Shown one piece after another: positions 1,091-12,860 of a DNA stretch of 12,860 nt (positions are counted from its first letter, which is position 1; the number at the start of each line of letters is the position of its first letter). Both the position numbers and the translations under genes were made by a program. Below the pieces are notes generated by a model, which was not told the origin of the DNA, did no database searches, and saw only the letters and a program-made list of their open reading frames with translations. Source of the stretch: Actinomycetota bacterium (lineage in GTDB: Bacteria; Actinomycetota; Actinomycetes; Actinomycetales; Angustibacteraceae); NCBI GenBank assembly GCA_014377795.1, contig JACMOY010000142.1:1-12860 (forward strand). Direction: 5' to 3'.

Positions 1091-1243
1091 CCGAGCAGTC
1101 TGGCCGGGGCGCGCACGCCGCAGCCGCCGTCGTCCACAGGGGCGCCCGCAGACCTACCGCCCACGTGCCCGTGGCCATATCGTGACATCCACGGGGATGG
1201 TTCGGCGTCGTGACCGAGTGGGTGCACCGGCCGGGTGGGGGTG
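1091..1243. promoter_or_regulatory. Divergent intergenic region between FHA-ftsK and tadA (copy A)
   Basis: This spacer separates the minus-strand FHA-ftsK start from the plus-strand tadA-like start. It holds GTCCACA at 1132-1138 and a -10-like TATCGT at 1178-1183, 39 bases apart. The same pair with the same 39-base gap occurs ahead of the intact tadA (8169-8175 and 8215-8220), so it is a conserved leader. No convincing -35 box is visible. Calling it a promoter is inference; its conservation between copies is seen directly. Confidence 0.5.
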
Positions 1244-1459
1244 GTGGACGCGTTGGCGCAGGTCGAGCGCGAGGTGCGCGGGCTGGTCGCGGACGTCGTC
1301 GCGGACTACGACGAGCGGTCGATGTCCGGCAGCCTGCCGACCCTGCTCGACCCGGCCGGGGCGGTGCAGCGGGTGTGGGACGCTGTGGCCGGTTTCGGTG
1401 CGCTGCAACCGTTCCTGGACGACCCGCGGGTCGAGGAGATCTGGATCAAGACCGTCTGA
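1244..1459 (+). pseudogene. Truncated 5' end of tadA (copy A)
   Basis: A GTG at 1244 opens a frame matching the N-terminus of the intact TadA at 8259. It begins VDALAQVE, lacks about 17 codons present in the intact gene (the RRSGVDPVREG region) without losing frame, then matches almost perfectly from LPTLLDP through RVEEIW. Homology stops at about 1448 and TGA follows at 1457-1459. Over the roughly 106 bases from about 1340 to 1445 I count five differences from the intact copy, all at third codon positions and silent. The ATPase core (Walker A and B) is absent, so no functional motor can be made. In-frame GTGs at 1235 and 1241 are alternative starts. From 1460 to about 1569 I see no gene, only a short hairpin (CCCCG-CTT-CGGGG, 1532-1544). 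Confidence 0.85.
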
Positions 1460-1569
1460 CCGTGAGGTAAGTCCCCTGGCCGCCCTCGTTGTTCGTGTGC
1501 AGCTGAGCTGGGCCTCGACGACATACGCAAGCCCCGCTTCGGGGGACCCGCTGCGAGGAGGAGCGAGGA

Positions 1570-1761
1570 GCGCCGGCGTCGGCGACGAGCAGCGCACCGT
1601 ACGGCAGCGGTGGCTGGCCCAGGACGGCGTCCGGCGACAGCGGCTGCCCGCTCACCTGCGCAGACCCCGGACCAGGGCGTGCCGGCGGGACCGGACACCT
1701 CGAGGTCGACGGGCGCGGTCGGGTGCCTTGCGTCGACCACGGTGCAGCGCAGGGAGGGCAC
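1570..1761 (-). pseudogene. Decayed 5' end of a second FHA-ftsK gene (copy B)
   Basis: From a GTG at 1761 the minus strand reads VPSLRCTVVDARHP and, further on, LEVSGPAGTPW, which aligns with VVTLRCSVLDPVRD and IELSAPAGTTW at the start of the intact gene at 1090. After W-S-G-V-C-A the match shifts to another frame, where PDAVLGQPPLPYGALLVA aligns with ADAVLGRPPLVDGVLLVA of the intact gene. About ten to twenty codons and the original frame are lost between the two blocks. Homology fades near 1570, before the FHA domain. It is a broken fragment of only the extreme N-terminus and is more diverged than the adjacent tadA fragment, which suggests a different age or donor. Confidence 0.75.
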
Positions 1762-1802
1762 GGCACGAGGGTGCCTCAGCGGCGCGGTTCCTCGCCACCG
1801 TC

Positions 1803-1831
1803 GTCCACAGGGGTGCAGGGGCGCCTATCTT
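1803..1831 (+). promoter_or_regulatory. Candidate dld promoter derived from a Tad leader (copy B)
   Basis: GTCCACA (1803-1809) is followed after 16 bases by TATCTT (1826-1831). These are the same two elements that lie 39 bases apart in the other two tadA leaders, so this copy seems to have lost 23 bases. The -10-like box matches TANNNT, but the -35 region is poor. It lies 67 bases before the dehydrogenase ATG and is the only promoter-like element I see there. No TNGTNNNACNA operator is visible between it and the gene. Confidence 0.35.
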
Positions 1832-1897
1832 GAGTGGAGCCACGGCCGTCGACGGCGCGGACGTGCGGGCGCGAACGCTTCCACGAGACGGGGACTC

Positions 1898-4732
1898 ATG
1901 ACGGCGACGGATCAGGCAGTGGGGCAGGGATCGCAGCCGACCGGGACGCTGGGTGAGCGGTTGTCCTCGGCGCTGCCCGGGGCGGTCAGCCTGGGTATGA
2001 CTGACCGGCTGCGCATGGCGCACGACGCGTCGCACTACCTGCTGACCCCGCAGGCCGTGGTGGCCCCGGCCGACGCGGCCCAGGTGGCGACCGTGATGAG
2101 GGTCTGCGCCGAGCTGGGCGCACCCCTGACCTTCCGCGCCGGCGGCACCAGCCTGAGCGGGCAGTCCGTCACCGACAGCGTGCTGGTCGACGTGCGCCGG
2201 CACTTCGGCGCCATCGAGGTGCTCGACGCGGGCCGCCGGGTGCGGGTGGGCCCCGGGGCAGTCCTGCGCCAGGCCAACCTGCGGCTGGCCCGCTACGGGC
2301 GGCGGTTGGGGCCCGACCCGGCCAGCGAGTCCGCGTGCACCATGGGCGGGGTCATCGCCAACAACTCCAGCGGCATGACCTGTGGCACCGAGCAGAACAC
2401 CTACCGGACCCTCGAGTCAGTCGTCGCGGTGCTGCCGTCGGGCACCACGATCGACACCGGCGCAGCGGACGCCGACGCGCGGCTGCGTGCGCTGCAGCCC
2501 GAGCTGCACGCGGGCCTGCTGCGGCTGCGCGACCGGGTGCGGTCCGACGCGGCCTCGGTGCTGACCATCCAGCACCAGTTTTCGATGAAGAACACGATGG
2601 GGTACGGGCTGAACTCGTTCCTGGACCACGACCGGGCCGTCGACATCCTGATGCACCTGCTGGTGGGCAGCGAGGGCACGTTGGCGTTCGTGGCCGAGGC
2701 GACCTTCGCCACTGTGCCGGTGCGGCCCCATGCCGCCACCGCGCTGCTGACGTTCGCCGACCTGCACCGCGCCACCTCCGCGCTGCCGGAGCTCATCGCG
2801 TCGGGCCCCGCGGCCATCGAGCTGTTCGACGCCACGTCGCTGCGCGTGGCGCAGGTGGACCCGCTCGCCGACGCCGCGCTGCGCGGGATGCAGATCGACG
2901 CCCACGCCGCCCTGCTGGTCGAGTGGCAGTCGGCCGAGCTCGACGAGCTCGTCGAGCAAGAGGTGGTCGCCCGCGCGATGCTGGCCGGCCTGCCCCTGGT
3001 CGGCGCCACCACGCCCAGCCGCGACGCGGGTGCCCGCAAGGCGCTATGGACGCTGCGCAAGAATCTGTACCCCGCAGTGGCCGGTGCCCGGCCGAGCGGC
3101 ACCACCGCGCTGCTGGAGGACATCGCCGTCCCGCCGGCCGACCTGGCCGTCACCTGCGACGGCCTGGCGACCCTGTTCGCCCGCCACGGCTACCGAGACA
3201 ACGTCATCTTCGGCCATGCCAAGGACGGCAACATCCACTTCATGCTCACCGAGCGCTTCCACGCAGGTGAGGCACCCGACCGCTTCGAGGCCTTCACCGA
3301 GGAGATGGTCGACCTCGTCCTCGGCCACGGCGGCACGCTCAAGGCCGAGCACGGCACTGGCCGGGTGATGGCCCCGTACGTCGCGCGCCAGTACGGCGCC
3401 GAGCTGTACGACGTGATGTGCGAGGTCAAGCGGCTGTTCGACCCCACCTCGGTGCTCAACCCGGGGATCGTCGTGGGCGCCTCGCCCACGGCGCACCTGG
3501 AGCACCTGAAGGTGCTGCCCACCGTCGACGCGGAGGTCGACCGGTGCACCGAGTGCGGCTACTGCGAGCCGGTCTGCCCCAGCCGTGAGCTGACCACGAC
3601 GCCGCGCCAGCGGATCGTGCTGCGCCGAGAGCAGGCCGCGGCCGAGGCGGCGGGCGACACCGAGCTGCTGGCCCAGCTGCGCGCGGACTACGACTACGAC
3701 GCGGTGCAGACCTGTGCCGTGGACGGCATGTGCGCCACCGCCTGTCCCGTGGCCATCAACACCGGCGACCTGGTCAAGCGGCTGCGGGCCGAGGGGCAGG
3801 GCCGGCTCACCGACGGCGGCTGGAAGGCCGCGGCGAACCACTGGGGCGCGGCGCTGAAGGGGGCGGCCACCGGCCTGAACAGCGCGGCCCTCATGCCGCC
3901 CGTCGTGCCGGAGCAGGTCAGTCGCGCGGCGCGCGTCGTCGCTGGCGACGATCGGGTTCCCCGCTGGGACCGCTCGCTGCCGGCGGGTGGGAGCACCCGC
4001 CGTCCGCGCCAGCACGCGCACCCCGCGGCCGTGTACCTCCCGTCCTGCCAGAGCAGCATGTTCGCCCCTGAGCGCGGTGCCGACGGCGCCCATGCGGGAG
4101 TGACCCCCGCGGTGCTCGCGCTGGCCGAGCGGGCGGGGGTGGCGCTGGTGGTGCCCGAGGGCATCGCCGACCACTGCTGCGGCACGCCGTGGTCGTCCAA
4201 GGGTCTGACCCAAGGCCACGCAGCCATGGGCGCGAAGGTGCGCCCGTGGCTGGCCGCGGCCACCGAGGGCGGCAGGCTGCCAGTGGTGTCGGACTCCGCC
4301 ACCTGCAGCGAGGGCTGGACCCGGACCGTGGACGGTACCGGAATCCACGTCGTGGACGCCGTGGCCTGGGTCGCCACCGAGGTGCTGCCAACGCTGCCCG
4401 AGGGCACGAGGCTCGATTCGCTCGCGCTGCACCCGACCTGCTCGTCGGTGCGGGCCGGGCTGGACGTGCCGCTGCGGGCGGTGGCCGCCCGGGTGGCGCA
4501 CGAGGTGGTGGTGCCCGACGCGTGGGGGTGCTGCGGGTTCGCCGGCGACCGAGGCATGCTGCACCCCGAGCTGACCGCCTCCGCGACGCGGGAGCAGGCC
4601 GCGCAGATCACCGCCCGCGAGTTCGACGCCTACGCGTCGGTCAACCGCACCTGCGAGATCGGCATGTCCCGGGCCACCGGCCGGCCGTACGTGCCGCTGC
4701 TGGAGCTGCTGGAGCGGGTCACCCGCGGCTGA
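1898..4732 (+). CDS. D-lactate dehydrogenase-type FAD-binding and (Fe-S)-binding oxidoreductase
   Basis: The product is 944 residues, the usual size of the fused FAD/Fe-S D-lactate dehydrogenase (Dld-II/YdiJ-like) family. The N-terminal FAD-binding PCMH domain contains G82-G-T-S-L-S-G-Q. The FAD-oxidase C-terminal domain has GHAKDGNIH (439-447) and LKAEHGTG (481-488). Next come two cysteine clusters for 4Fe-4S centres, C550-x2-C-x2-C-x3-C-P and C606-x5-C-x3-C-P, and then two CCG domains (C760-C-G and C878-C-G) as in GlcF and LutA. The expected reaction is oxidation of D-lactate to pyruvate with electrons passed to the quinone pool at the membrane. Glycolate or D-2-hydroxyglutarate are alternative substrates; the neighbouring lactate permease and regulator favour lactate. 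The ATG at 1898 starts just before the conserved part; the frame is open further upstream only by chance. The ribosome site (GAGACGGGG) is weak. The 3' end faces the remnants and lldP. Confidence 0.9.
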   Translation: MTATDQAVGQGSQPTGTLGERLSSALPGAVSLGMTDRLRMAHDASHYLLTPQAVVAPADAAQVATVMRVCAELGAPLTFRAGGTSLSGQSVTDSVLVDVRRHFGAIEVLDAGRRVRVGPGAVLRQANLRLARYGRRLGPDPASESACTMGGVIANNSSGMTCGTEQNTYRTLESVVAVLPSGTTIDTGAADADARLRALQPELHAGLLRLRDRVRSDAASVLTIQHQFSMKNTMGYGLNSFLDHDRAVDILMHLLVGSEGTLAFVAEATFATVPVRPHAATALLTFADLHRATSALPELIASGPAAIELFDATSLRVAQVDPLADAALRGMQIDAHAALLVEWQSAELDELVEQEVVARAMLAGLPLVGATTPSRDAGARKALWTLRKNLYPAVAGARPSGTTALLEDIAVPPADLAVTCDGLATLFARHGYRDNVIFGHAKDGNIHFMLTERFHAGEAPDRFEAFTEEMVDLVLGHGGTLKAEHGTGRVMAPYVARQYGAELYDVMCEVKRLFDPTSVLNPGIVVGASPTAHLEHLKVLPTVDAEVDRCTECGYCEPVCPSRELTTTPRQRIVLRREQAAAEAAGDTELLAQLRADYDYDAVQTCAVDGMCATACPVAINTGDLVKRLRAEGQGRLTDGGWKAAANHWGAALKGAATGLNSAALMPPVVPEQVSRAARVVAGDDRVPRWDRSLPAGGSTRRPRQHAHPAAVYLPSCQSSMFAPERGADGAHAGVTPAVLALAERAGVALVVPEGIADHCCGTPWSSKGLTQGHAAMGAKVRPWLAAATEGGRLPVVSDSATCSEGWTRTVDGTGIHVVDAVAWVATEVLPTLPEGTRLDSLALHPTCSSVRAGLDVPLRAVAARVAHEVVVPDAWGCCGFAGDRGMLHPELTASATREQAAQITAREFDAYASVNRTCEIGMSRATGRPYVPLLELLERVTRG

Positions 4733-4740
4733 GGCCAGGG

Positions 4741-4772
4741 GGGCGGCGCCGATCGATGTCCCGGCGCCGCCC
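4741..4772. terminator. GC-rich hairpin after the dehydrogenase gene
   Basis: An 11-bp perfect stem (4741-4751 pairing with 4762-4772, core GGCGGCGCCG) with a 10-base loop starts 9 bases after the dehydrogenase stop and lies just before the end of the convergent remnant. There is no T-tract, which is common for actinobacterial terminators. It could act on both strands. Confidence 0.6.
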
Positions 4773-4784
4773 GGCGCGGACGGC

Positions 4785-5000
4785 TCAGCGAGCGCGGGCC
4801 GACAGTCGCAGCCAGGTGTCGACGACCGTGTCGGGGTTGAGCGACTTCGACTCGATGCCGCTGGCCCGCTTCATGATCGGCTCCCAGTCGGGGTCGGTCA
4901 TGTCGGCGACCAGCACCTCGTTGGGGACGAACTCGTGCATGGACGCGACATCGGTGAGCACCCGCACGGCCCCGGCGCCGATCTTCTGGCCGATCGCGCG
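4785..5000 (-). pseudogene. Internally deleted remnant of phosphoenolpyruvate synthase (ppsA)
   Basis: The minus strand reads [14 protein letters not shown], then [20 protein letters not shown], the segment at the start of the phosphohistidine (swivelling) domain of PEP synthase. It then jumps straight to [14 protein letters not shown], the extreme C-terminus of the same enzyme, and ends at TGA 4787-4785. By comparison with E. coli PpsA as I remember it, roughly 340 residues are missing between the two blocks and roughly 360 before them, so the catalytic histidine and the PEP-binding domain are gone. The seam lies near 4850-4862, at a Gly-Ile present around both parental positions, which would suit a short-homology deletion. 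PEP synthase converts pyruvate to PEP, a sensible former neighbour of lactate genes. A TAG (5003-5001) separates it in the same frame from the lutA remnant. Confidence 0.8.
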
Positions 5001-5084
5001 CTACTGCGGCCACATCGTGTCGTTGAAGCACGTCGCGAACAGCGCGACCCGCCGGCCGGCCGCCGGACGGGCTCCAAAGGTCAC
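5001..5084 (-). pseudogene. Remnant of the lutA/lldE 5' end
   Basis: A GTG at 5084-5082 overlaps the ancestral lldP stop (TGA 5083-5081) as GTGA, the usual coupled arrangement. The frame reads RVALFATCFNDTMWP, the conserved first strand and cysteine of the CCG-domain protein LutA/LldE of the LutABC L-lactate oxidase, and then meets TAG after 27 codons, where the ppsA remnant begins. This implies an earlier lldP-lutA operon whose distal genes (normally lutB and lutC) were deleted. The piece is too short to work. Because of the lldP frameshift it is now read as the tail of the lldP frame. Confidence 0.7.
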
Positions 5085-6851
5085 GGCAGCATGCCCGACA
5101 GGACGGTCGACTGCAGGCCGACGATCAGGCACATGGCGATGATCAGGCCGAGGCTGCCACGGCAGCACCTTGCGCACAATGTCGGCCTCACGCCCGATCA
5201 GCCCGACCGCGGTGGCGGCGATGGTCAGGTTCTGTGGGCTGATCATCTTGCCGACAACCCCGCCGGAGGTGTTGGCGGCGACCAGCAGCGTCGGGTCGAT
5301 GCCCGCGGTCTTGCCGGCGCTCTGCTGCAGCGTGGCGAACAGGGCGTTCGCGCTGGTGTCGGAGCCGGTCACCGCCGTACCGATCCAGCCCAGGGTCGGG
5401 CTGAGGAAGGCGAAGGCCGCGCCGGTGCCGGCGATCCAGGTGCCAATGGTTATCGTCTGGCCCGAGAGGTTCATGACGTAGGCGAGAGCCAGCATCGACG
5501 CGACGGTGACGAACGCGAACCGCATCCGGTGCGCCGTCGCACCCACCTCCGCGCCCCAGCCGGACACGCCGATGCGGTAGACGAGCGCGACGACCAGCGA
5601 GCAGATCAGCAGCAGCGTGCCGGGTGAGCTCAGCCAACCGAGGGCGTAGGTGGTCGACGCGTTGGGTTTGCCGGCCACGGTCAGGACCTCCCCGGACAGG
5701 CCCGGCCAGGGGATCTTGACGTCGGTGCCGGTGAGCCACGCCTTGACCGGGGCCACGAGCTTGGCGGTGCTGAAGACGACGATGACCAGCAGGTAGGGGA
5801 ACAGCGCCATCACGATGCGGCGGGGAGTCATCTCGCTGGCGCGCACCCGCAGGGCCTCGGCCGAGACGCGGTGGTCGGAGACCGGCCCTGGACCGGCCGA
5901 GCCTGAGCCGGCCGAGCCTGACCCGGCCGAGCCGGCGACCCCCCGGGCCCCACCGGCCATGGCGAGGTCCCGCTCACGTTCGGTGGCGAGGGTCTCGAGC
6001 GCGTCGTCTCGGCCACTGGGCTGCCACACCTTGAGGAAGAGGACGGCGGCCGTCAGGCCGGCCAGCGCGGCGATGATGTCGGTCAGCTCCACCGAGATCC
6101 AGGTGGCCGCGACCCACTGGGAGATGGCGAACGTCAGGCCGACGACGACGGCGACCGGCCAGGTCTGACGCACGCCGCGGCGCCCGTCGGCCATCAGCAC
6201 GAGCAGCAGGGGCACGAAGGCCGCCAGGATCGGGGTCTGGTGGCCGACGTACGCGCCGATCTCCGTGTAGGGGATGCCGGTGAGGTTGCCCGCGGTGATG
6301 ATCGGCGTGCCGACCGCCCCGAACGCCACCGGGGCGGTGTTGGCGAGCAGGACGACGGCGGCGGCCCGAAGCGGTGAGAAACCCAGCGCCATCAGCATCA
6401 CGCCGGTGATCGCGACCGGTGCGCCGAACCCGGCCAGGGCCTCGAGCAGACCGCCGAAGCAGAACGCGATGATGATCGCCTGCACCCGCGGGTCGTCGGA
6501 GATGAGGTGGAACGTCGCGCGCAGGTCCTCGAAGTGGCCCGATCGCACTGTGACCTGGAAGAGCAGGATCGCCGTGAACACGATCCACATGATCGGGAAG
6601 ACCCCGAACGCCGCTCCCTCGGTCGCCGCGAGGACGGCCAGGTGCACCGGCATCCCGAAGCACAGCCAGGCCACGACGACCGCCACGGCGACCGCGCTGA
6701 GGCCGGCCCAATGCGCCTTCCACCGCAGCACGCCGAGGGTGACGAACACCGTCACCAGCGGCAGCACCGCCACCAGGGCGGAGAGGGCGAGGCTGCCAGC
6801 GACCGGTGCGATGTCCGGGCGGAAGGCGGTGGGCAGGGCAAGGGCGGTCAT
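5081..6851 (-). CDS. lldP: Lactate permease LldP, with a one-base frameshift near the C-terminus
   Basis: This is a member of the LctP lactate permease family, a proton-coupled importer of L- and D-lactate and glycolate with 12 or more membrane helices. Conserved stretches include GGLLEALAGFGAP (133-145), ANTAPVAFGAVGTP (170-183), TGSDTSANALF (495-505) and GGVVGKMISPQN (530-541). The ATG at 6851 is preceded by GGAGGA at a good distance and is preferred to a GTG six codons earlier. After W565 the frame shifts: an extra C on the minus strand (about 5156) separates it from codons reading SLGLIIAMCLIVGLQSTVL and the expected TGA at 5083-5081. Without the extra base the protein would be 589 residues. 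As written, translation continues to 5001 (616 residues) and replaces the last helix with a polar tail fused to the lutA remnant. A sequencing error and a true mutation are both possible. A Gly/Ser/Ala repeat lies in the cytoplasmic loop at about 301-323. Confidence 0.88.
5893..5937. repeat. Three 15-bp tandem repeats inside lldP
   Basis: Three consecutive 15-base units begin CCGGCCGAGCC (5893, 5908, 5923); the first two differ at one base and the third diverges in its last four. On the coding strand they specify repeated Gly-Ser-Ala linker residues in a loop between membrane helices. The length is a multiple of three, so copy-number change keeps frame. Confidence 0.8.
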
Positions 6852-6890
6852 TAGTCCTCCGAGTCGCACGGCACCGGGCGGGAGCTGCAG

Positions 6891-6901
6891 TGGTCAGACC
6901 A
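6891..6901. promoter_or_regulatory. LldR-type operator O1, downstream of the lldP start of transcription
   Basis: TGGTCAGACCA is an 11-bp palindrome (central base excluded) that fits TNGTNNNACNA, the LldR operator consensus I recall from Corynebacterium. It lies about 11-21 bases downstream of the predicted lldP transcription start, where a repressor would block elongation or initiation. It is about 57 bp centre to centre from O2. Confidence 0.75.
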
Positions 6902-6918
6902 ATCGGGCTTGCGGGTAG

Positions 6919-6947
6919 ACCGTAGGGGTGGGCACCAGCACTGTCAA
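6919..6947 (-). promoter_or_regulatory. lldP promoter (TTGACA, 17-bp spacer, TACGGT)
   Basis: On the minus strand TTGACA (6947-6942) is a perfect -35 box, followed by a 17-base spacer and TACGGT (6924-6919), which fits TANNNT. The predicted start near 6912 gives a leader of about 60 bases to the lldP ATG. The O2 operator abuts the -35 box and O1 lies just after the start point, so repression by LldR is strongly suggested. Confidence 0.75.
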
Positions 6948-6958
6948 TGGTCTGACCA
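6948..6958. promoter_or_regulatory. LldR-type operator O2, next to the lldP -35 box
   Basis: TGGTCTGACCA is an 11-bp palindrome fitting TNGTNNNACNA, with the same arms as O1. It directly abuts the lldP -35 box and lies about 39 bases before the lldR start, so one bound dimer could affect both divergent genes. Paired sites around a promoter resemble the looping arrangement of E. coli lldPRD. Confidence 0.75.
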
Positions 6959-6996
6959 CCGTGGCTCGGCAGCCTCGGAGGTGCGATGCTGCGCCT

Positions 6997-7740
6997 GTGA
7001 CACCAGGGGGCGCAGCGACGACGGCCCGCAGCGGCGAGGGGCTGAAGGCCTTCGAGGTCGTGCTGCGGTGGGTCGACGACCGCATCCTGGGTGGTCAGCT
7101 CGCCGTGGGCGACCAGCTGCCGGCGGAGCGCGAGCTCGCACGCATGCTCGACGTCAGCCGCGCCGCCGTGCGCGAGGCGGTACGCACCCTGCAGGCCCAG
7201 GGCATCGTGCGCTCGTCGGTCGGGGGCGGCGGGGCCGGCGGGACGACGATCACCGGAGGTTCCACCAACGCGCTCAGCCTGCTGCTGCGCCGACACGTGG
7301 CCCTGTCGATCTTCCCTGCTCCCGACGTCGTCGAGGTGCGCGTCTCACTGGAACGCCTCAGCGTCCGCCTCGCCGCGGCCAACGCGACCCCGGAGCACCT
7401 CGCGCCGATGCGGGCCCTGCTCGACGTCATGGCCGACCCCGGCATCGACCGGTCGCAGTTCAACGACTGCGACACCGCCTTCCACGTGGCCATGGCCGAC
7501 GCGGCGGGTAATCTTCTGGTCAGGGACCTGACCGCCGCGATCCGTGAGTCGCTGCGCCTGCCGATCCTCGACCGCTTCCACGCCCTGCAGTCCTGGAGCG
7601 AGGTCGCCGAGACGCTGCGCGGCGACCACCAGTCGATCTTCGCGGCGGTCGCCCGCGGCGACGGCGAGGCGGCGGCAGCACTTGTCGAGGACCACATCAG
7701 AAGTGCGTGGCGCATCCTGGAGGGCGCGGTCCAGCGCTGA
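6997..7740 (+). CDS. lldR: FadR/GntR-family regulator with FCD domain, probable lactate-responsive LldR
   Basis: The 247-residue protein has an N-terminal winged helix-turn-helix (LPAERELARMLDVSRAAVRE, 41-60) and a C-terminal FCD ligand-binding domain. The FCD metal ligands D159, H163, H211 and H233 are all present, the pattern of FadR-type proteins that bind small organic acids. Divergence from lldP and the two operators beside the shared promoter region support a lactate-responsive repressor of the permease and probably of itself. I chose the GTG at 6997 because it sits close to the first conserved helix. GTGs at 6928 and 6961 are in frame, but the first would place O2 inside the coding region. 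The GGAGGTG at 6976-6982 is 14 bases before the chosen start, rather far, so the start is uncertain. It ends without an obvious T-rich terminator. Confidence 0.85.
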   Translation: MTPGGAATTARSGEGLKAFEVVLRWVDDRILGGQLAVGDQLPAERELARMLDVSRAAVREAVRTLQAQGIVRSSVGGGGAGGTTITGGSTNALSLLLRRHVALSIFPAPDVVEVRVSLERLSVRLAAANATPEHLAPMRALLDVMADPGIDRSQFNDCDTAFHVAMADAAGNLLVRDLTAAIRESLRLPILDRFHALQSWSEVAETLRGDHQSIFAAVARGDGEAAAALVEDHIRSAWRILEGAVQR

Positions 7741-7959
7741 CGGCGCGGGCACGCTGGCCCCGCCTCAGCCGCCCGCCGTCCTCCGCCGCCGTTCGGAGCG
7801 GTCACCGACCACCGACCGGTCACCCGGCGTCGACCTGTCGTCACCCAGCCGTTGCCCGTTGTTCGCAGGTCGGGTGCGCGCCAGCAGGGACCTCACAGCG
7901 CCGCCGAGCCTTCGACCCGGGCGGCAGTCGTCGCTCACGACCGGTCGAGGGGTGGTGTC
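7741..7959. other. No gene recognised between lldR and the tadA copy B fragment
   Basis: Neither strand gives a frame that resembles a known protein here, and the open frames look like chance products of high GC. A direct repeat of GGTCACC flanks GACCACCGACC at about 7800-7825 with unknown meaning. This stretch is the right-hand edge of the lactate module. Confidence 0.5.
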
Positions 7960-8060
7960 GTGGACGCGGTGGCGCAGGTCGAGCTTGAGGTCCGCAAGCT
8001 CATCCGAGGGTTGGGCGTCGACCCGGTGCGCGATGGCGACGCCGTCCGCGACGTGGTGCG
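7960..8060 (+). pseudogene. Truncated 5' end of tadA (copy B)
   Basis: From a GTG at 7960 the frame reads VDAVAQVELEVRKLIRG and then GVDPVRDG, matching LDAIAQVELEVRELIRR and GVDPVREG at the intact TadA start at 8259. Unlike copy A it keeps the GVDPVR segment. The match ends around 8060, about 33 codons in, and the frame then runs on through unrelated sequence to a stop at 8563-8565, overlapping the intact gene out of frame. It is a 5' stub without an ATPase domain. Confidence 0.8.
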
Positions 8061-8114
8061 CCATGGTGATCGCACGCTGCCGGTCCGGCGGGCGACGAAC
8101 CGGACGACGACCAT
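8061..8114 (-). pseudogene. Possible third remnant of the FHA-ftsK start
   Basis: Upstream of the GTCCACA element of the intact tadA leader, on the minus strand, an ATG at 8114 opens MVVVRFVARR. It lies at nearly the same distance from GTCCACA as the FHA-ftsK start codons in copies A and B, and bears a weak likeness to VVTLRC. It then runs into the tadA copy B fragment. Position is the main support; the sequence likeness alone would not carry the call. Confidence 0.3.
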
Positions 8115-8168
8115 GGAGGGACGACTGTCGTCGAGCTGGAACAAAGCGCTCGACGGCCCCTCGCGGTT

Positions 8169-8258
8169 GTCCACACGTTGCGGCGCAGCTCTTCTCGGCG
8201 GCGGCGGCGGGCCCTATGGTGCATATGTCGGGGCCGGACCGGGGCAGGGGGTGGACCG
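8169..8258 (+). promoter_or_regulatory. Leader of the Tad operon (copy C)
   Basis: TTGTCCACA (GTCCACA at 8169-8175) and TATGGT (8215-8220) repeat the arrangement seen ahead of tadA copy A, with the same 39-base gap, and lie 44 bases before the tadA TTG. The GC-rich stretch between them carries a run of GGC triplets. The operon promoter is probably here, but I see no good -35 box at 17 bases from TATGGT. Confidence 0.4.
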
Positions 8259-9506
8259 TTGGACGCGATCGCGCAGGTGGAGCTCGAGGTGCGCGAGCTC
8301 ATCCGCCGGTCCGGTGTCGACCCGGTCCGTGAGGGCCGGGTGGTCCGGGCGCTGGTCGAGGAGGTGGTGGCCGACTACGACGACCGGTCCGTATCCGGAA
8401 CCCTACCGACCCTGCTCGACCCGGCCGGCGCGGTGCAGCGGGTCTGGGACGCCGTGGCGGGTTTCGGTGCGCTGCAACCGTTTCTGGACGACCCGCGGGT
8501 CGAGGAGATCTGGGTCAACGAGCCGTCCAAGGTGTTCGTCGCCCGCGACGGCGTCGCCGAGCTGACCACGACGATCCTGGACGACGACACCGTGCGCGAC
8601 CTGGTCGAGCGGATGCTGAAGGCCTCGGGGCGGCGGCTCGACCTCAGCTCGCCGTTCGTGGACGCCACCTTGCCCGACGGGTCGCGCTTGCACGTGGTGA
8701 TCCCGGACGTGACCCGCGAACACTGGGCGTTGAACGTGCGCAAGTTCGTCGTCAAGGCGAGCCACCTCGAGGACCTCGTGCGGCTGGGCAGCCTCACGGC
8801 GCACGCGGCGCAGTTCCTCGATGCGAGCGTGCGCGCCGGGCTCAACATCCTGGTCGCGGGAGGCACGCAGGCCGGGAAGACCACCCTGCTCAACTGTCTC
8901 GCCGGGGCGATCGACTCCCGCGAGCGGATCATCACCTGCGAGGAGGTCTTCGAGCTGCGGATCGCCGCGCGGGACGTCGTCGCGCTGCAGTGCCGGCAGC
9001 CGAGCCTCGAAGGCACCGGCGAGATCCCGTTGCGGCGACTGGTGAAGGAGTCCCTGCGCATGCGCCCCTCGCGCATCATCGTGGGCGAGGTGCGCCAGGA
9101 GGAGAGCCTGGACATGCTGTTGGCTCTGAACAGCGGGCTGCCTGGCATGTGCACCGTCCACGCCAACAGCGCCCGCGAGGCGATCACCAAAATGTGCACA
9201 CTCCCACTGCTGGCGGGCGAGAACGTCGGGTGGCGCTTCGTCGTCCCGACCGTCGCAGCCAGCATCGACCTGGTGGTGCACATGGGTCTGGAACCGAACG
9301 GTGCGCGCCGCGTGCGCGAGGTCGTGGGTGTGCCCGGGCGCGTCGAGGGGGACGTCGTCGAGGTGGCCGACATCTTCACCACCCGCGGTGGTCAGCTGGT
9401 CCGGTCCGCAGGGTTCCCACCGCATCTTGAGCGGTACGAACGGATCGGTGTGGACGTCGCGCAACTGCTGGGGCGAGGCAGCTCCGACGTGCAGGTGACG
9501 TCGTGA
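8259..9506 (+). CDS. tadA: Tad pilus motor ATPase TadA/CpaF
   Basis: The 415-residue protein belongs to the CpaF/TadA branch of secretion ATPases, the hexameric cytoplasmic motor that drives assembly of Flp pili. The N-terminal domain (about 1-170) precedes the RecA-like core, which has Walker A G201-GTQAGKTT, the acidic box around CEEVFEL, Walker B R-x-x-RIIVGEVR (E277) and the His box CTVHANS (298-304). The P-loop reads TQAGK rather than the more usual TGSGK but keeps GxxxxGKT. The start is TTG at 8259; the truncated copies A and B have GTG at the equivalent codon followed by DAxAQVE, which supports this choice over longer frames reaching back to 8178. Its stop overlaps the tadB GTG by four bases (GTGA). 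No tadZ/cpaE gene lies directly upstream, where actinobacterial loci often carry one. Confidence 0.93.
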   Translation: MDAIAQVELEVRELIRRSGVDPVREGRVVRALVEEVVADYDDRSVSGTLPTLLDPAGAVQRVWDAVAGFGALQPFLDDPRVEEIWVNEPSKVFVARDGVAELTTTILDDDTVRDLVERMLKASGRRLDLSSPFVDATLPDGSRLHVVIPDVTREHWALNVRKFVVKASHLEDLVRLGSLTAHAAQFLDASVRAGLNILVAGGTQAGKTTLLNCLAGAIDSRERIITCEEVFELRIAARDVVALQCRQPSLEGTGEIPLRRLVKESLRMRPSRIIVGEVRQEESLDMLLALNSGLPGMCTVHANSAREAITKMCTLPLLAGENVGWRFVVPTVAASIDLVVHMGLEPNGARRVREVVGVPGRVEGDVVEVADIFTTRGGQLVRSAGFPPHLERYERIGVDVAQLLGRGSSDVQVTS

Positions 9507-10366
9507 CGGGCGTGCTGCTCGGGCTCGGGCTGGGCAGCGGGCTGTTCTGCCTGTGGTGGTCGACCTGGCCGCGCTCGCCCCGTGCGCCGCGCCCGCCGTC
9601 CGCCCGCCGCCTCGCGATGCTGGACGACCTGCGACAGGCGGGGCTGGAGGGGCTGAGTCCCGCCCGGCTGCTCGCCGGCAGCGTGGCCCTGGGCGCGGTC
9701 GTCCTGCTGCTGGTGCTGGGCGCCACGTCGGTGACCGCTCTGGCCGTCTGCTTCGCAGCGATGGCGGTCTGCGCGCCGTTGCTGATCGTGCGCTCCCGCG
9801 CCCGCCGTCGCCGCGCGCTGCTGCGCGACCTGTGGCCCGATGTCGTCGACAACCTCGCGTCAGCCGTGCGCGCGGGCCTCTCGCTGCCCGAAGCGCTGTC
9901 GCAGCTGGGATCGCGCGGGCCCGAGTCGCTGCGTCCTTCGTTCGCGGCGTTCGCCGAGGACCACCGCGCCACCGGGCGGTTCCAGGACTGTCTGGACGCG
10001 CTGAAGGATCGGCTCGCCGACCCGGTGGCCGACCGCGTGATCGAGTCGCTGCGCATCGCCCGCGAGGTCGGGGGCAGTGACCTCGGGCGGCTGCTGCGCA
10101 CGCTGTCGGCGTTCCTGCGCCAGGACGCGCGCACGCGCTCCGAGCTCGAGAGCAGGCAGGGGTGGACGGTCAACGCGGCGCGGCTGGCGGTCGCGGCGCC
10201 GTGGATCGTCCTGACCCTGCTGGCGACCAGGCCGGAGTCCATCGCGGCGTACGACCGCCCCGCCGGTGCGGCGGTGCTCGTGGTCGGTGCCGTCACCACG
10301 GTCGTCGCCTACCAGCTCATGCTCCGCATCGCGCGGCTGCCTGACGAGCAGCGGGTCCTGCGGTGA
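9503..10366 (+). CDS. tadB: Tad inner-membrane platform protein TadB (T2SSF family)
   Basis: The 287-residue membrane protein begins at a GTG overlapping the tadA stop (GTGA). One helix lies at about 4-20, two at about 55-97, and two close the protein at about 225-280. Between them the cytoplasmic T2SSF domain carries LWPDVVDNLASAVRAGLSLP and the later EVGGSDLGRLLRTLS, typical of GspF/TadB proteins. TadB and TadC form the membrane platform turned by TadA to push pilin into the fibre. It overlaps tadC by four bases, so the three are translationally coupled. Confidence 0.9.
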   Translation: MTGVLLGLGLGSGLFCLWWSTWPRSPRAPRPPSARRLAMLDDLRQAGLEGLSPARLLAGSVALGAVVLLLVLGATSVTALAVCFAAMAVCAPLLIVRSRARRRRALLRDLWPDVVDNLASAVRAGLSLPEALSQLGSRGPESLRPSFAAFAEDHRATGRFQDCLDALKDRLADPVADRVIESLRIAREVGGSDLGRLLRTLSAFLRQDARTRSELESRQGWTVNAARLAVAAPWIVLTLLATRPESIAAYDRPAGAAVLVVGAVTTVVAYQLMLRIARLPDEQRVLR

Positions 10367-11295
10367 CGCCCTGGGTGCAGGGCGCCCTCGTCGGCCTGGG
10401 TGCGGGCCTGGGGCTGCTGGTGGTCGCGATGCGCACCCAGGCGGTGCGTCGGGTGGATCTGGACGCCAGGTTGGGGCCCTACCTGCGCGACACGACACCC
10501 GCGAGCCGGTTGCTGGGTCGCACCGCGGTGGGGGCCCCGTCGGTGACGGCTCGGTTCTTGGCGCCGCTCGTCGCCGGAGCCGGCCGGCGGGTCGACTCGG
10601 TCCTCGGCGGCAGCGCGTCGGTGCGTCGCCGCCTGGTGCGTGCCGGGCGGGAGCCCGAGGTCGACGCTCTGCGCGCCGAGCAGGTGCTCTGGGGTGCCAC
10701 CGGGCTGGCCGCAGGATCGCTCGTCGCAGCAGCCGCCTGGTGGCGTGGCGCCGGCTCCGCCCCGGCTCTCGCGGTGCTCGCCCTGCTCTGCGGGGCGGCG
10801 GGAGTGGCCGGGCGCGACTGGGTTCTCACGGCGCAGGCGACCCGCCGCGAGCAGCGGTTGCTGATGCAGTTCCCCACCGTGGCCGAGATGCTGGCCCTGG
10901 CCGTGAGCGCGGGTGAGGGGCCCAGCGCGGCGCTCGAGCGGGTGGCCCGGCTCAGCGACGGTGAGCTGGCTGACGAGCTGCGGCGGACCCTCGCCGACAC
11001 CCGGGCTGGGGCCTCGCTGACCACGGCGCTGCAGGCGCTCGCCGACCGCACCGCGCTGGTGCCGCTGGCTCGTTTCGTCGACGGCGTCGTGGTGGCGGTC
11101 GAGCGCGGTACGCCGCTGGCCGACGTCCTGCACGCCCAGGCCCAGGACGTCCGCGAGGTAGGCCAGCGCGCCCTGATGGACGCCGCGGGCAAAAAAGAGA
11201 TTCTGATGATGATCCCGGTGGTGTTCCTGATCCTGCCGGTCACCGTCCTGTTCGCCGTCTACCCCGGGTTCGCGTTCCTGCGGCTCGGCCTGTGA
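10363..11295 (+). CDS. tadC: Tad inner-membrane platform protein TadC (T2SSF family)
   Basis: The 310-residue protein starts at a GTG overlapping the tadB stop. It has an N-terminal helix (about 5-22), a hydrophobic pair around 108-148, the T2SSF core (LMQFPTVAEMLALAVSAGEG, then ERGTPLADVLHAQAQDVRE) and a C-terminal helix with MMIPVVFLILPVTVLFAVYP. The AGKKE-MMIPVVFLILP ending is characteristic of TadC proteins. It pairs with TadB as the platform. A 30-base gap with a strong ribosome site separates it from the pilin gene. Confidence 0.9.
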   Translation: MTPWVQGALVGLGAGLGLLVVAMRTQAVRRVDLDARLGPYLRDTTPASRLLGRTAVGAPSVTARFLAPLVAGAGRRVDSVLGGSASVRRRLVRAGREPEVDALRAEQVLWGATGLAAGSLVAAAAWWRGAGSAPALAVLALLCGAAGVAGRDWVLTAQATRREQRLLMQFPTVAEMLALAVSAGEGPSAALERVARLSDGELADELRRTLADTRAGASLTTALQALADRTALVPLARFVDGVVVAVERGTPLADVLHAQAQDVREVGQRALMDAAGKKEILMMIPVVFLILPVTVLFAVYPGFAFLRLGL

Positions 11296-12375: not shown

Positions 12376-12860
12376 CCCCACGGGTCGCCGTCCGGGGTGG
12401 GCCCGAGGACGGGCAGATCAGCCTGCTCATCCTGGTCTACGCCCTGATCGCCCTGTCACTGGTAGCCGTCGTCGTCGACGCGACAGCAGTCCACCTCGCG
12501 CGCACCCAGCTGCTGGATGCGGCCGACGCCGCTGCGCTCGATGCCGCGGACGCGGTCGACGAGAAGGCGGTGTACGCCGGTGGGCTGTCCGACGCCGTGC
12601 CGCTGACCTCGGCGTCGGTGCGCGACCAGGCGACGACGTACCTGTCGTCGTACGCCGTCCCCTCCCACCTGGACGGCGTCGTCCTCGGCGCCCTCGCCCC
12701 GCGGGCGCGCGGGGCACGGGCGCGACCGCGGCGGCCCGCCCGGCGGGGGCGCCGAGGACGACGTCGTCCAGGTGGGGGGGGACGGCGTACGACGACAGGT
12801 ACGCCGTCGCCTGGTCGCGCACCAACGCCGAGGTCAGCGGCACGGCGTCGGCCAGCCCAC
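12372..12860 (+). CDS. TadG-like pilus assembly protein, N-terminal part; 3' end unreliable
   Basis: The ATG at 12372 overlaps the previous stop. EDGQISLLILVYALIALSL and the following VVVDATAVHLART form a TadG-type N-terminal helix, then DAADAAALDAADAV, the alanine-rich segment usual after it. Residues to about 112 (VVLGAL) look genuine. Beyond about 12707 the sequence becomes the inverse of the preceding 128 bases and the frame turns into Arg/Gly/Pro-rich sequence unlike this family, though it stays open to the window edge. The true 3' part is therefore missing or displaced. TadG-family proteins are membrane-anchored and act with the TadE/F pseudopilins. Confidence 0.75.
   Translation, partial: MTPRVAVRGGPEDGQISLLILVYALIALSLVAVVVDATAVHLARTQLLDAADAAALDAADAVDEKAVYAGGLSDAVPLTSASVRDQATTYLSSYAVPSHLDGVVLGALAPRARGARARPRRPARRGRRGRRRPGGGGRRTTTGTPSPGRAPTPRSAARRRPAH
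12580..12860. repeat. Large inverted repeat (foldback) at the right end
   Basis: Bases 12580-12707 match the reverse complement of 12733-12860 around a centre at 12720, with no gaps and six differences in the outer 119 bases. The outer end of the right arm coincides exactly with the last base of the window. The central 25 bases are loop. It may be an assembly or chimera artefact or a true inverted duplication within the TadG-like gene. Confidence 0.9.

Follow-up and report, generated by a model that had tools for sequence, protein, structure and literature searches.

A probable integration hotspot in the 5′ half of tadA and the partial tadA copies that enclose a lactate gene block

Introduction

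The stretch of DNA analyzed here, called the window, is the whole 12,860-nucleotide contig JACMOY010000142.1 (G000:C417) from the assembly GCA_014377795.1 of an Actinomycetota bacterium (genome G000, 73% complete, 460 contigs). Its right part is a tad locus (tadA, tadB, tadC, a small open reading frame (ORF) and a TadE-like gene), its left end holds an FHA-ftsK-like gene, and between them a dld-lldP-lldR block of lactate genes is enclosed by partial copies of the 5′ ends of tadA and FHA-ftsK. The question raised by this locus is how such partial copies arose around the lactate genes. We consider it probable that, in this order of Actinomycetes, the 5′ half of tadA serves as a hotspot of integration, and that the window belongs to a class of insertions without a large serine integrase (LSI). 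The gene is taken as a hotspot because breakpoints cluster in unrelated families and LSIs are found at the same gene; this part of the reading is firmer than the part concerning mechanism.

The sample consisted of 396 genomes of the order, 11 more of genus g11 and the individual loci named below. Breakpoint codons were taken from the ends of tblastn matches and from reading by eye. The numbers of cases (seven genomes with tadA stubs; 11 plus three with LSIs) are minima, follow-up having been chosen by a short open frame or an extra match.

Partial copies of tadA and FHA-ftsK in the window

The features that make up the junction and its insert are the following.

2 to 1090, − strand: FHA-ftsK-like gene, N-terminal 363 aa (Pfam FHA and Yop-YscD_cpl), truncated by the contig start; host flank of the probable hotspot
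1091 to 1243, + strand: leader A, the tadA promoter region, with a TCCACA box at 1133-1138
1235 to 1459, + strand: tadA stub A, a displaced 5′ end with codons ~1-88 but without 18 internal codons; its match to the full tadA ends at ~1449
1450 to 1575, no strand: junction of stub A with the next partial copy; no match found
1576 to 1761, − strand: FHA-ftsK 5′ stub B, frame broken, with internal deletions (protein and DNA repeats)
1762 to 1897, + strand: leader B, with a TCCACA box at 1804-1809, directly 5′ of dld (read from the sequence)
1898 to 4732, + strand: dld-like gene, FAD-linked oxidase fused to Fe-S and CCG domains, D-lactate dehydrogenase type (Pfam)
5001 to 6869, − strand: lldP, lactate permease (Pfam Lactate_perm, 5.6e-132)
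6928 to 7740, + strand: lldR-like GntR/FCD regulator (Pfam)
7949 to 8057, + strand: tadA stub C, codons ~1-33 (DNA repeat with the full tadA)
8165 to 8258, + strand: leader C, with a TCCACA box at 8170-8175 (read from the sequence)
8259 to 9506, + strand: intact tadA, T2SSE/VirB11-type ATPase (Pfam 6.5e-41), 87% identical to the copy of G002

This anatomy was observed directly. Three tadA 5′ ends, at 1244, 7960 and 8259, had been proposed in an earlier note on this DNA, and DNA repeats bear them out: stub A (1268-1449) matches 8337-8518 within the full tadA with 87% identity over 182 nt (E 3.7e-59), and stub C (7949-8057) matches 8248-8356 with 74% identity over 109 nt. Concerning FHA-ftsK, 5′ ends had been claimed at 1090 and 1761 and, more cautiously, at 8114. 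The first two are upheld, as the reverse strand at ~1576-1761 matches the N terminus of the intact gene at residues 3-33 (48%) and 55-92 (50%), with E 9e-9 each, and DNA repeats concur (861-916 with 1576-1631, 80%; 988-1042 with 1659-1713, 75%). The third is not: ORF 7935-8174 of the reverse strand is unlike FtsK by eye, and no repeat with the ftsK start was found near 8114 among the 20 largest repeat families listed. The leader said to accompany each 5′ end, TCCACA followed by TATNNT, is present at 1133, 1804 and 8170, but not at the tadA stub at 7960, directly upstream of which the lactate block lies. The consistent orientation of all copies was confirmed in the repeat comparison, as was the position of dld-lldP-lldR between leader B and stub C; the repeat anatomy also supports the view that the block is captured inside one partial copy of the junction.

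The absence of transposase, integrase and tRNA genes, also claimed in the earlier note, holds for the window. No transposase was present among the 10 window proteins scanned with Pfam or seen in the ORF list, so that the locus does not have the make-up of a composite transposon or an island borne by an insertion sequence (IS). Pfam analysis of the main ORFs gave no integrase or conjugation gene, the LSI profile gave no match in the window, nor PF07508 in G000 at its 73% completeness, and there was no tRNA and no Rfam match at the gathering threshold. In 11 other genomes, an LSI is found at the tadA break. A displaced 5′ stub stands on one side of the insert and an intact tadA on the other, which means that here the insertion does not inactivate the gene. 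No recombination half-site was recognised by eye at 1450-1575, and the right side is the full tadA.

The arrangement without insert is seen in relatives. FHA-ftsK and tadA are divergent neighbours in G001, G003 and many other loci, with gaps, calculated from match ends, of 142 nt in G001 (L040), 166 nt in G003 (L043) and 187 nt in Knoellia koreensis (L081); many loci that are more distant showed no FHA-ftsK match. This is what the earlier note had proposed to look for in relatives, namely the two genes side by side without the lactate block, and different cargo occurs at tadA stubs elsewhere. The most similar TadA (87%) belongs to G002 (L079, Kineosporiaceae metagenome-assembled genome (MAG) clean1242), whose contig holds only 410 nt upstream of tadA; no ftsK-start match was found in these 410 nt and, by eye, a different reading frame ends before the leader. 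TCCACA was found within 250 nt upstream in 74 of 108 near full-length tadA loci, which are related to one another, as against 3.3% of composition shuffles, and by this comparison it is a conserved feature of tadA leaders. The box, often TTATCCACA in Actinomycete tadA leaders, presumably resembles a DnaA box. In three further loci, L089 (Janibacter sp. HTCC2649), L108 and L132, distances of 6.7, 5.6 and 3.7 kb separate the FHA-ftsK match from the tadA match, and no tadA stub was detected; these wide gaps are possibly older insertions at the same junction.

Large serine integrases at breaks in tadA and tadC

In 11 genomes, tadA was found in two pieces with an LSI gene at the break. The break lies at codon ~83 in G035, at ~130 in G271, G197 and G401, at ~150-165 in G301, G051 and G117, and at ~205 in G043, G339, G355 and G104. 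The LSI match of G301 ends ~1.4 kb from the tadA body, the gap being short in the other single-contig cases; in G043 and G104 each piece lies on a contig of its own. G032 is not included in the 11, its LSI being ~6 kb from the tadA fragments. In three more genomes, G045, G302 and G367, it is tadC that is broken, with an LSI at the break. The three breaks differ in place (codons ~300, 247 and 285; loci L176:14962-16326, L194 and L197, the last from G367), and the far part of the G302 gene lies outside the stretch. Two candidates were rejected: the LSI matches of G264 are ~8 kb beyond an intact tadC, and the tad genes of G320 are intact.

The 14 LSI cases are spread across eight families (f6, f7, f8, f9, f11, f13, f17 and f18). 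The four LSI genes scanned have Resolvase and Recombinase domains. Among themselves, the LSIs of G035, G043 and G051 share only 28-30% identity; the G197 and G401 enzymes (f9) each reach 58% identity with that of G271 (f6), whose codon region they also use. Genes of this kind are present in 179 of the 396 order genomes. Compared with phages, the LSIs of G271 and G355 showed 32-37% identity among the 24 matches listed, all records being below 60%. Concerning TadA in viral contigs, 24 stretches matched a search pattern and none was confirmed.

The window can be placed on this map. Stub A breaks at codon 87/88, between the LSI crossover of G035 (82/83) and the breaks of the g11 stubs described below (~90), and so at one of the preferred places. 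Likewise, G381 and G004 have stub breaks that lie, by eye, no more than ~2 codons from the crossover at codon ~130 in G271, G197 and G401. A side observation concerns G276 (L167), where tadA is split at codon ~110 by ~7 kb within which no serine integrase was found.

Stubs of tadA with cargo in other genomes

Seven genomes share the architecture of the window: G000 itself, G011, G302, G330, G339, G381 and L115 (Frankiaceae MAG 3_4_m_bin13). Each has at least one tadA 5′ stub, then cargo, then a complete leader with a tadA 5′ end, and the downstream tadA reads through in six of the seven. In genus g11, nine extra matches to the TadA N-terminal profile were found in four of 44 genomes (G011, G302, G330 and G339), and all nine end between positions 90 and 93 of the model. 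Because the model itself has 95 positions, the exact break was read from the DNA. The other 40 genomes have one such match each, except G321, which has none. Partial matches occur in G242, G404 and G399, the last (50% complete) having a stub-like match alone. Tandem arrays with differing cargo are present, with three stubs each in G330 and G339 and two in L115, where the breaks are near codon 140.

An end motif common to the stubs of G302, G330 and G339 gave seven matches in the 44 g11 genomes (up to three mismatches), all at stub ends, and its reversed control gave none in the same genomes. Because the motif was derived from these very ends, the test shows only its absence elsewhere. The main stub of G011 has a looser version, and both stub ends of L115 carry AAACCAT[CG]CTG[AG]TAG. 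At the other side, the duplicated unit has an upstream edge that is sharply defined in certain pairs but not in every one. It is at or within ~10 nt of TCCACA in G011 (stub/full), G330 (stubs 2/3 and stub 3/full), G339 (stubs 1/2 and 1/3) and L115 (stubs 1/2); ~30-45 nt further in G302 and in G330 stubs 1/2; and ~300 nt further in G339 stub 3/full. The edge in G381 is ~165 nt before the start, and in L115 the stubs match the full gene only from near the start codon.

The cargo varies. That of G381 comprises a xanthine/uracil permease, an amidohydrolase, a cytosine/purine permease, a TetR regulator, a deaminase and an ABC transporter. In g11 it includes an RHS-repeat protein of 2242 aa, a C39-like peptidase and a DUF2599 protein, with seven of the ten proteins scanned lacking a Pfam match; a toxin role for these genes is only a guess. 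The cargo of L115 gave weak peptidase/esterase and DUF4185 matches and a cyclase-domain protein. Transposase-like ORFs, recognised by eye, lie in the cargo of G381 (IS3-like) and G330, with a fragment in G011, away from the borders, so IS elements have visited these cargos.

Two side observations belong here. In G330, two adjoining elements (L175:10016-16744 and L164:7268-7660) have a common left end and an RHS-type gene start, the second copy being short. In L197 (G367), a weak internal TadA fragment (local 143-304, residues 88-148, 48%) lies ~2.7 kb upstream of the full tadA.

The recurrence of this architecture bears on whether the window could be an assembly or amplification chimera. The source genome is fragmented, and the contig ends in an inverted repeat of 127 nt (12580-12706 and 12734-12860, 94% complementary, 27 nt apart) that is probably such an artefact. 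A chimera further inside the contig has very little probability in our estimate, as the window copies differ by 13-26% and the same architecture is present in the better assemblies of G302 (one contig), G330 (six) and G339 (eight).

Divergence between the copies

The differences between copies lean to third codon positions: 19/27 for stub A and 14/24 for stub C of the window against tadA, 39/51 and 61/74 (stub 2) in L115, 22/29 and 17/22 in G330, 46/62 and 48/71 in G339, and 25/50 in G302. In the control pair, the tadA genes of the window and G002, the values were 30/50 for codons 1-88 and 135/174 for codons 89-400. By this measure, most copy pairs resemble coding sequences whose divergence was constrained. 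This speaks for 5′ ends that belonged to different lineages before they met, or for selection still acting on the stubs, and it speaks against a local duplicate in decay. Two pairs are much closer. The G381 copies are 97.9% identical over 563 nt, the event being therefore recent. The G011 pair is 95% identical and mosaic: from the leader to nt 214 there are two differences, and the following 60 nt have 14, a pattern that gene conversion would leave.

These data bear on two other explanations. An in-place tandem duplication of the ftsK/tadA junction, followed by an unrelated insertion of the lactate genes, would agree with the common orientation of all copies. It fits badly because the stub-to-gene differences lean to third positions, as in stub A, unlike those expected of a decaying duplicate, and stubs with cargo recur in g11, G381 and L115; we consider it very improbable. 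Alternatively, the stubs could be retained small genes, coding for a free TadA N-terminal domain that, for instance, tunes pilus assembly. In many stubs the frame indeed stays open as far as the break and most differences fall at third positions, and several meet a stop soon after. On the other hand, most relatives examined have no extra copy (40 of the 44 g11 genomes, for example), stub A of the window lacks 18 codons and stub C has only ~33, so that this role seems highly unlikely.

Proposed mechanism and its weighing

In the reading that we prefer, inserted DNA would break tadA at preferred codons (~83-93, ~130, ~140, ~150-165 and ~205), with two outcomes. In a first class, an LSI gene lies at the junction and tadA is left split. 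In the second, to which the window belongs, a complete promoter box and 5′ coding end precede the tadA body, the older 5′ end being stranded upstream as a stub, and repeated events would build stub arrays with unrelated cargo between them. The window would record at least two rounds. Stub A, next to ftsK, is the 5′ end that lies outermost; dld-lldP-lldR sit in what would be a later partial copy, running from ftsK′ stub B and leader B to stub C; and leader C with the full tadA would be the working copy. Elements of the second class presumably are, or were, mobile as a unit, their new tadA 5′ end would derive from another lineage, and a site-specific recombinase, lost or acting in trans, may have made the first junctions.

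Several observations weigh against this reading. Concerning the recombinase, no LSI was found between stubs and tadA in any of the seven stub genomes, other recombinase kinds not having been searched, nor was one seen at the breakpoint codon 87/88 of the window, the nearest being that of G035. Broken tadA genes with no LSI in the stretch fetched occur in G276, G224, G160, G092 and G156, and the stub end of G381 does not match by eye the LSI arms of G271 at the same codon. Concerning the stubs, the break of stub C (codon ~33) is outside the preferred places, the g11 end motif was not seen by eye at the end of the window insert, a second stub of G011 (C5) has neither the end motif nor a tadA beside it in the stretch read, and the stub of G004 lies downstream of tadC. 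The third-position bias is weak in stub C of the window and in G302, to be read beside the control values. Finally, the downstream tadA of G339, a genome with stubs, is itself split by an LSI at codon ~205; both classes can therefore strike one locus.

The main competitor is homologous recombination alone, in which RecA would excise, re-insert and exchange cargo between repeats of the tadA promoter and 5′ end, perhaps via natural transformation, after a first junction made by illegitimate recombination. Repeats of ~330 nt or more flank several cargos, the G011 pair is mosaic as after gene conversion, and copy B of the window includes an ftsK piece, like a donor fragment with ragged ends. A common end motif would also be expected if one junction were copied. 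Besides the lack of LSIs in the seven intervals, no tyrosine integrase was found in the four of them tested (G000, G011, G381 and L115), and the PF00589 matches of G000 sit on contigs C427, C260 and C98, not on C417. By itself, however, this mechanism leaves unexplained the same narrow break windows in tadA of unrelated families, and we doubt it somewhat more than we believe it. The probabilities that we attach to it and to the hotspot reading overlap in all but mechanism and are not meant to sum to one.

It seems reasonable to divide the evidence between the two. An origin by site-specific integration is favoured because the stub breaks of G381 and G004 come, by eye, to within ~2 codons of the LSI crossover at codon ~130, while homologous recombination is favoured as the present mode because of the missing LSIs, the flanking repeats and the gene conversion. 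Judging from these traces, both may have acted in sequence, integration first and repair and exchange later. The earlier note's view of the junction as a recombination hotspot is thus kept in a changed form: the target is the tadA coding sequence and not only the intergenic junction, the stub ends falling in narrow codon windows, in other genera too. From its simple reading, repeated duplication or homology-driven insertion, duplication in place is dropped, and homology-driven movement survives as a live rival for the window class.

A more speculative scheme, which we consider unlikely, would see a cassette array without integrase, in which the exchange unit is the promoter of tadA together with its 5′ end. 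Cargo for lactate use, nucleobase uptake or secreted RHS- and peptidase-like proteins would be bounded by tadA 5′ copies. The Tad pilus would bring in DNA, homologous recombination with it would swap the cargo, and each exchange would re-make a working pilus gene, while serine-integrase elements would attack the same gene to stop uptake. If so, cargo would ride on the gene that enables DNA uptake.

Relation to known systems

The SXT element supplies a new gene start at prfC. Integrative and conjugative elements of the SXT/R391 family integrate into the 5′ part of this gene, and tandem arrays are known (PMC2786100, in excerpt); the window is alike in that a conserved gene has received an insertion in its 5′ part, and the class of the window likewise includes tandem arrays. 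It differs in size and content, since SXT has ~100 kb with its own integrase and conjugation genes, whereas the window insert has ~6.8 kb, neither kind of gene among its ORFs, and metabolic cargo. Mobile elements with independent integrases also converge on the DNA-uptake genes comYC, comK, comFA and comM (PMC4774983, in excerpt); here, in contrast, the target is the gene of the Tad/Flp motor ATPase (and tadC) in Actinomycetes, and the tadA of the window is intact. In Micrococcus luteus, deletion of any tad gene except tadB abolished transformation (PMC4322843, in excerpt), and our comparison suggests that the tadA insertions may extend the known targeting of competence genes. The targets of large serine recombinases are enriched in DNA competence genes according to PMC10083194, the main text of which, in excerpt, makes no mention of tad or pilus. 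The LSI genes at tadA and tadC breaks in relatives resemble such sites in coding genes, while the window itself has no LSI. In the open-access literature, judged mostly by title, no paper was found that names tadA or tadC as an integration hotspot.

On the hotspot reading, divergent serine integrases would have tadA as a common landing site; the LSI cases in tadA and tadC together span eight families of the sampled order. The idea that mobile elements disarm DNA uptake would become testable in a phylum where the single species studied has an uptake pilus of Tad type. A second outcome, in which cargo is gained and the pilus gene is kept, would be represented by the class without LSI, whose stubs would serve as markers for accessory gene arrays that integrase-based island finders would miss.

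The lactate block and neighbouring genes

Relatives of the window Dld, with 48-61% identity, were found in 21 of the 58 other genomes searched. In none of these 21 was a listed TadA match near the Dld relative, and no relative of at least 48% identity was found in the family-mates G001-G003 (G002 being 62% complete). By this comparison, the lactate block is cargo brought to the tadA junction, because the Dld relatives elsewhere never adjoin tadA and the family-mates have none of that quality. Among 11 Dld-relative loci viewed with ~1.5 kb flanks, both lldP and lldR stand beside dld in G025 and lldP does so in G007; two further loci gave weak regulator matches.

Two further rows complete the features of the window.

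4785 to 5072, − strand: short gene remnants (ORFs; two peptides placed on the window)
9503 to 11295, + strand: tadB and tadC (T2SSF; Pfam)

The remnants at 4785-5072 are taken by us to resemble phosphoenolpyruvate synthase and the N terminus of LutA. The 3′ end of lldP continues into the LutA-like remnant, and the block looks trimmed from a larger cluster, the remnants adjoining or being fused with the end of lldP.

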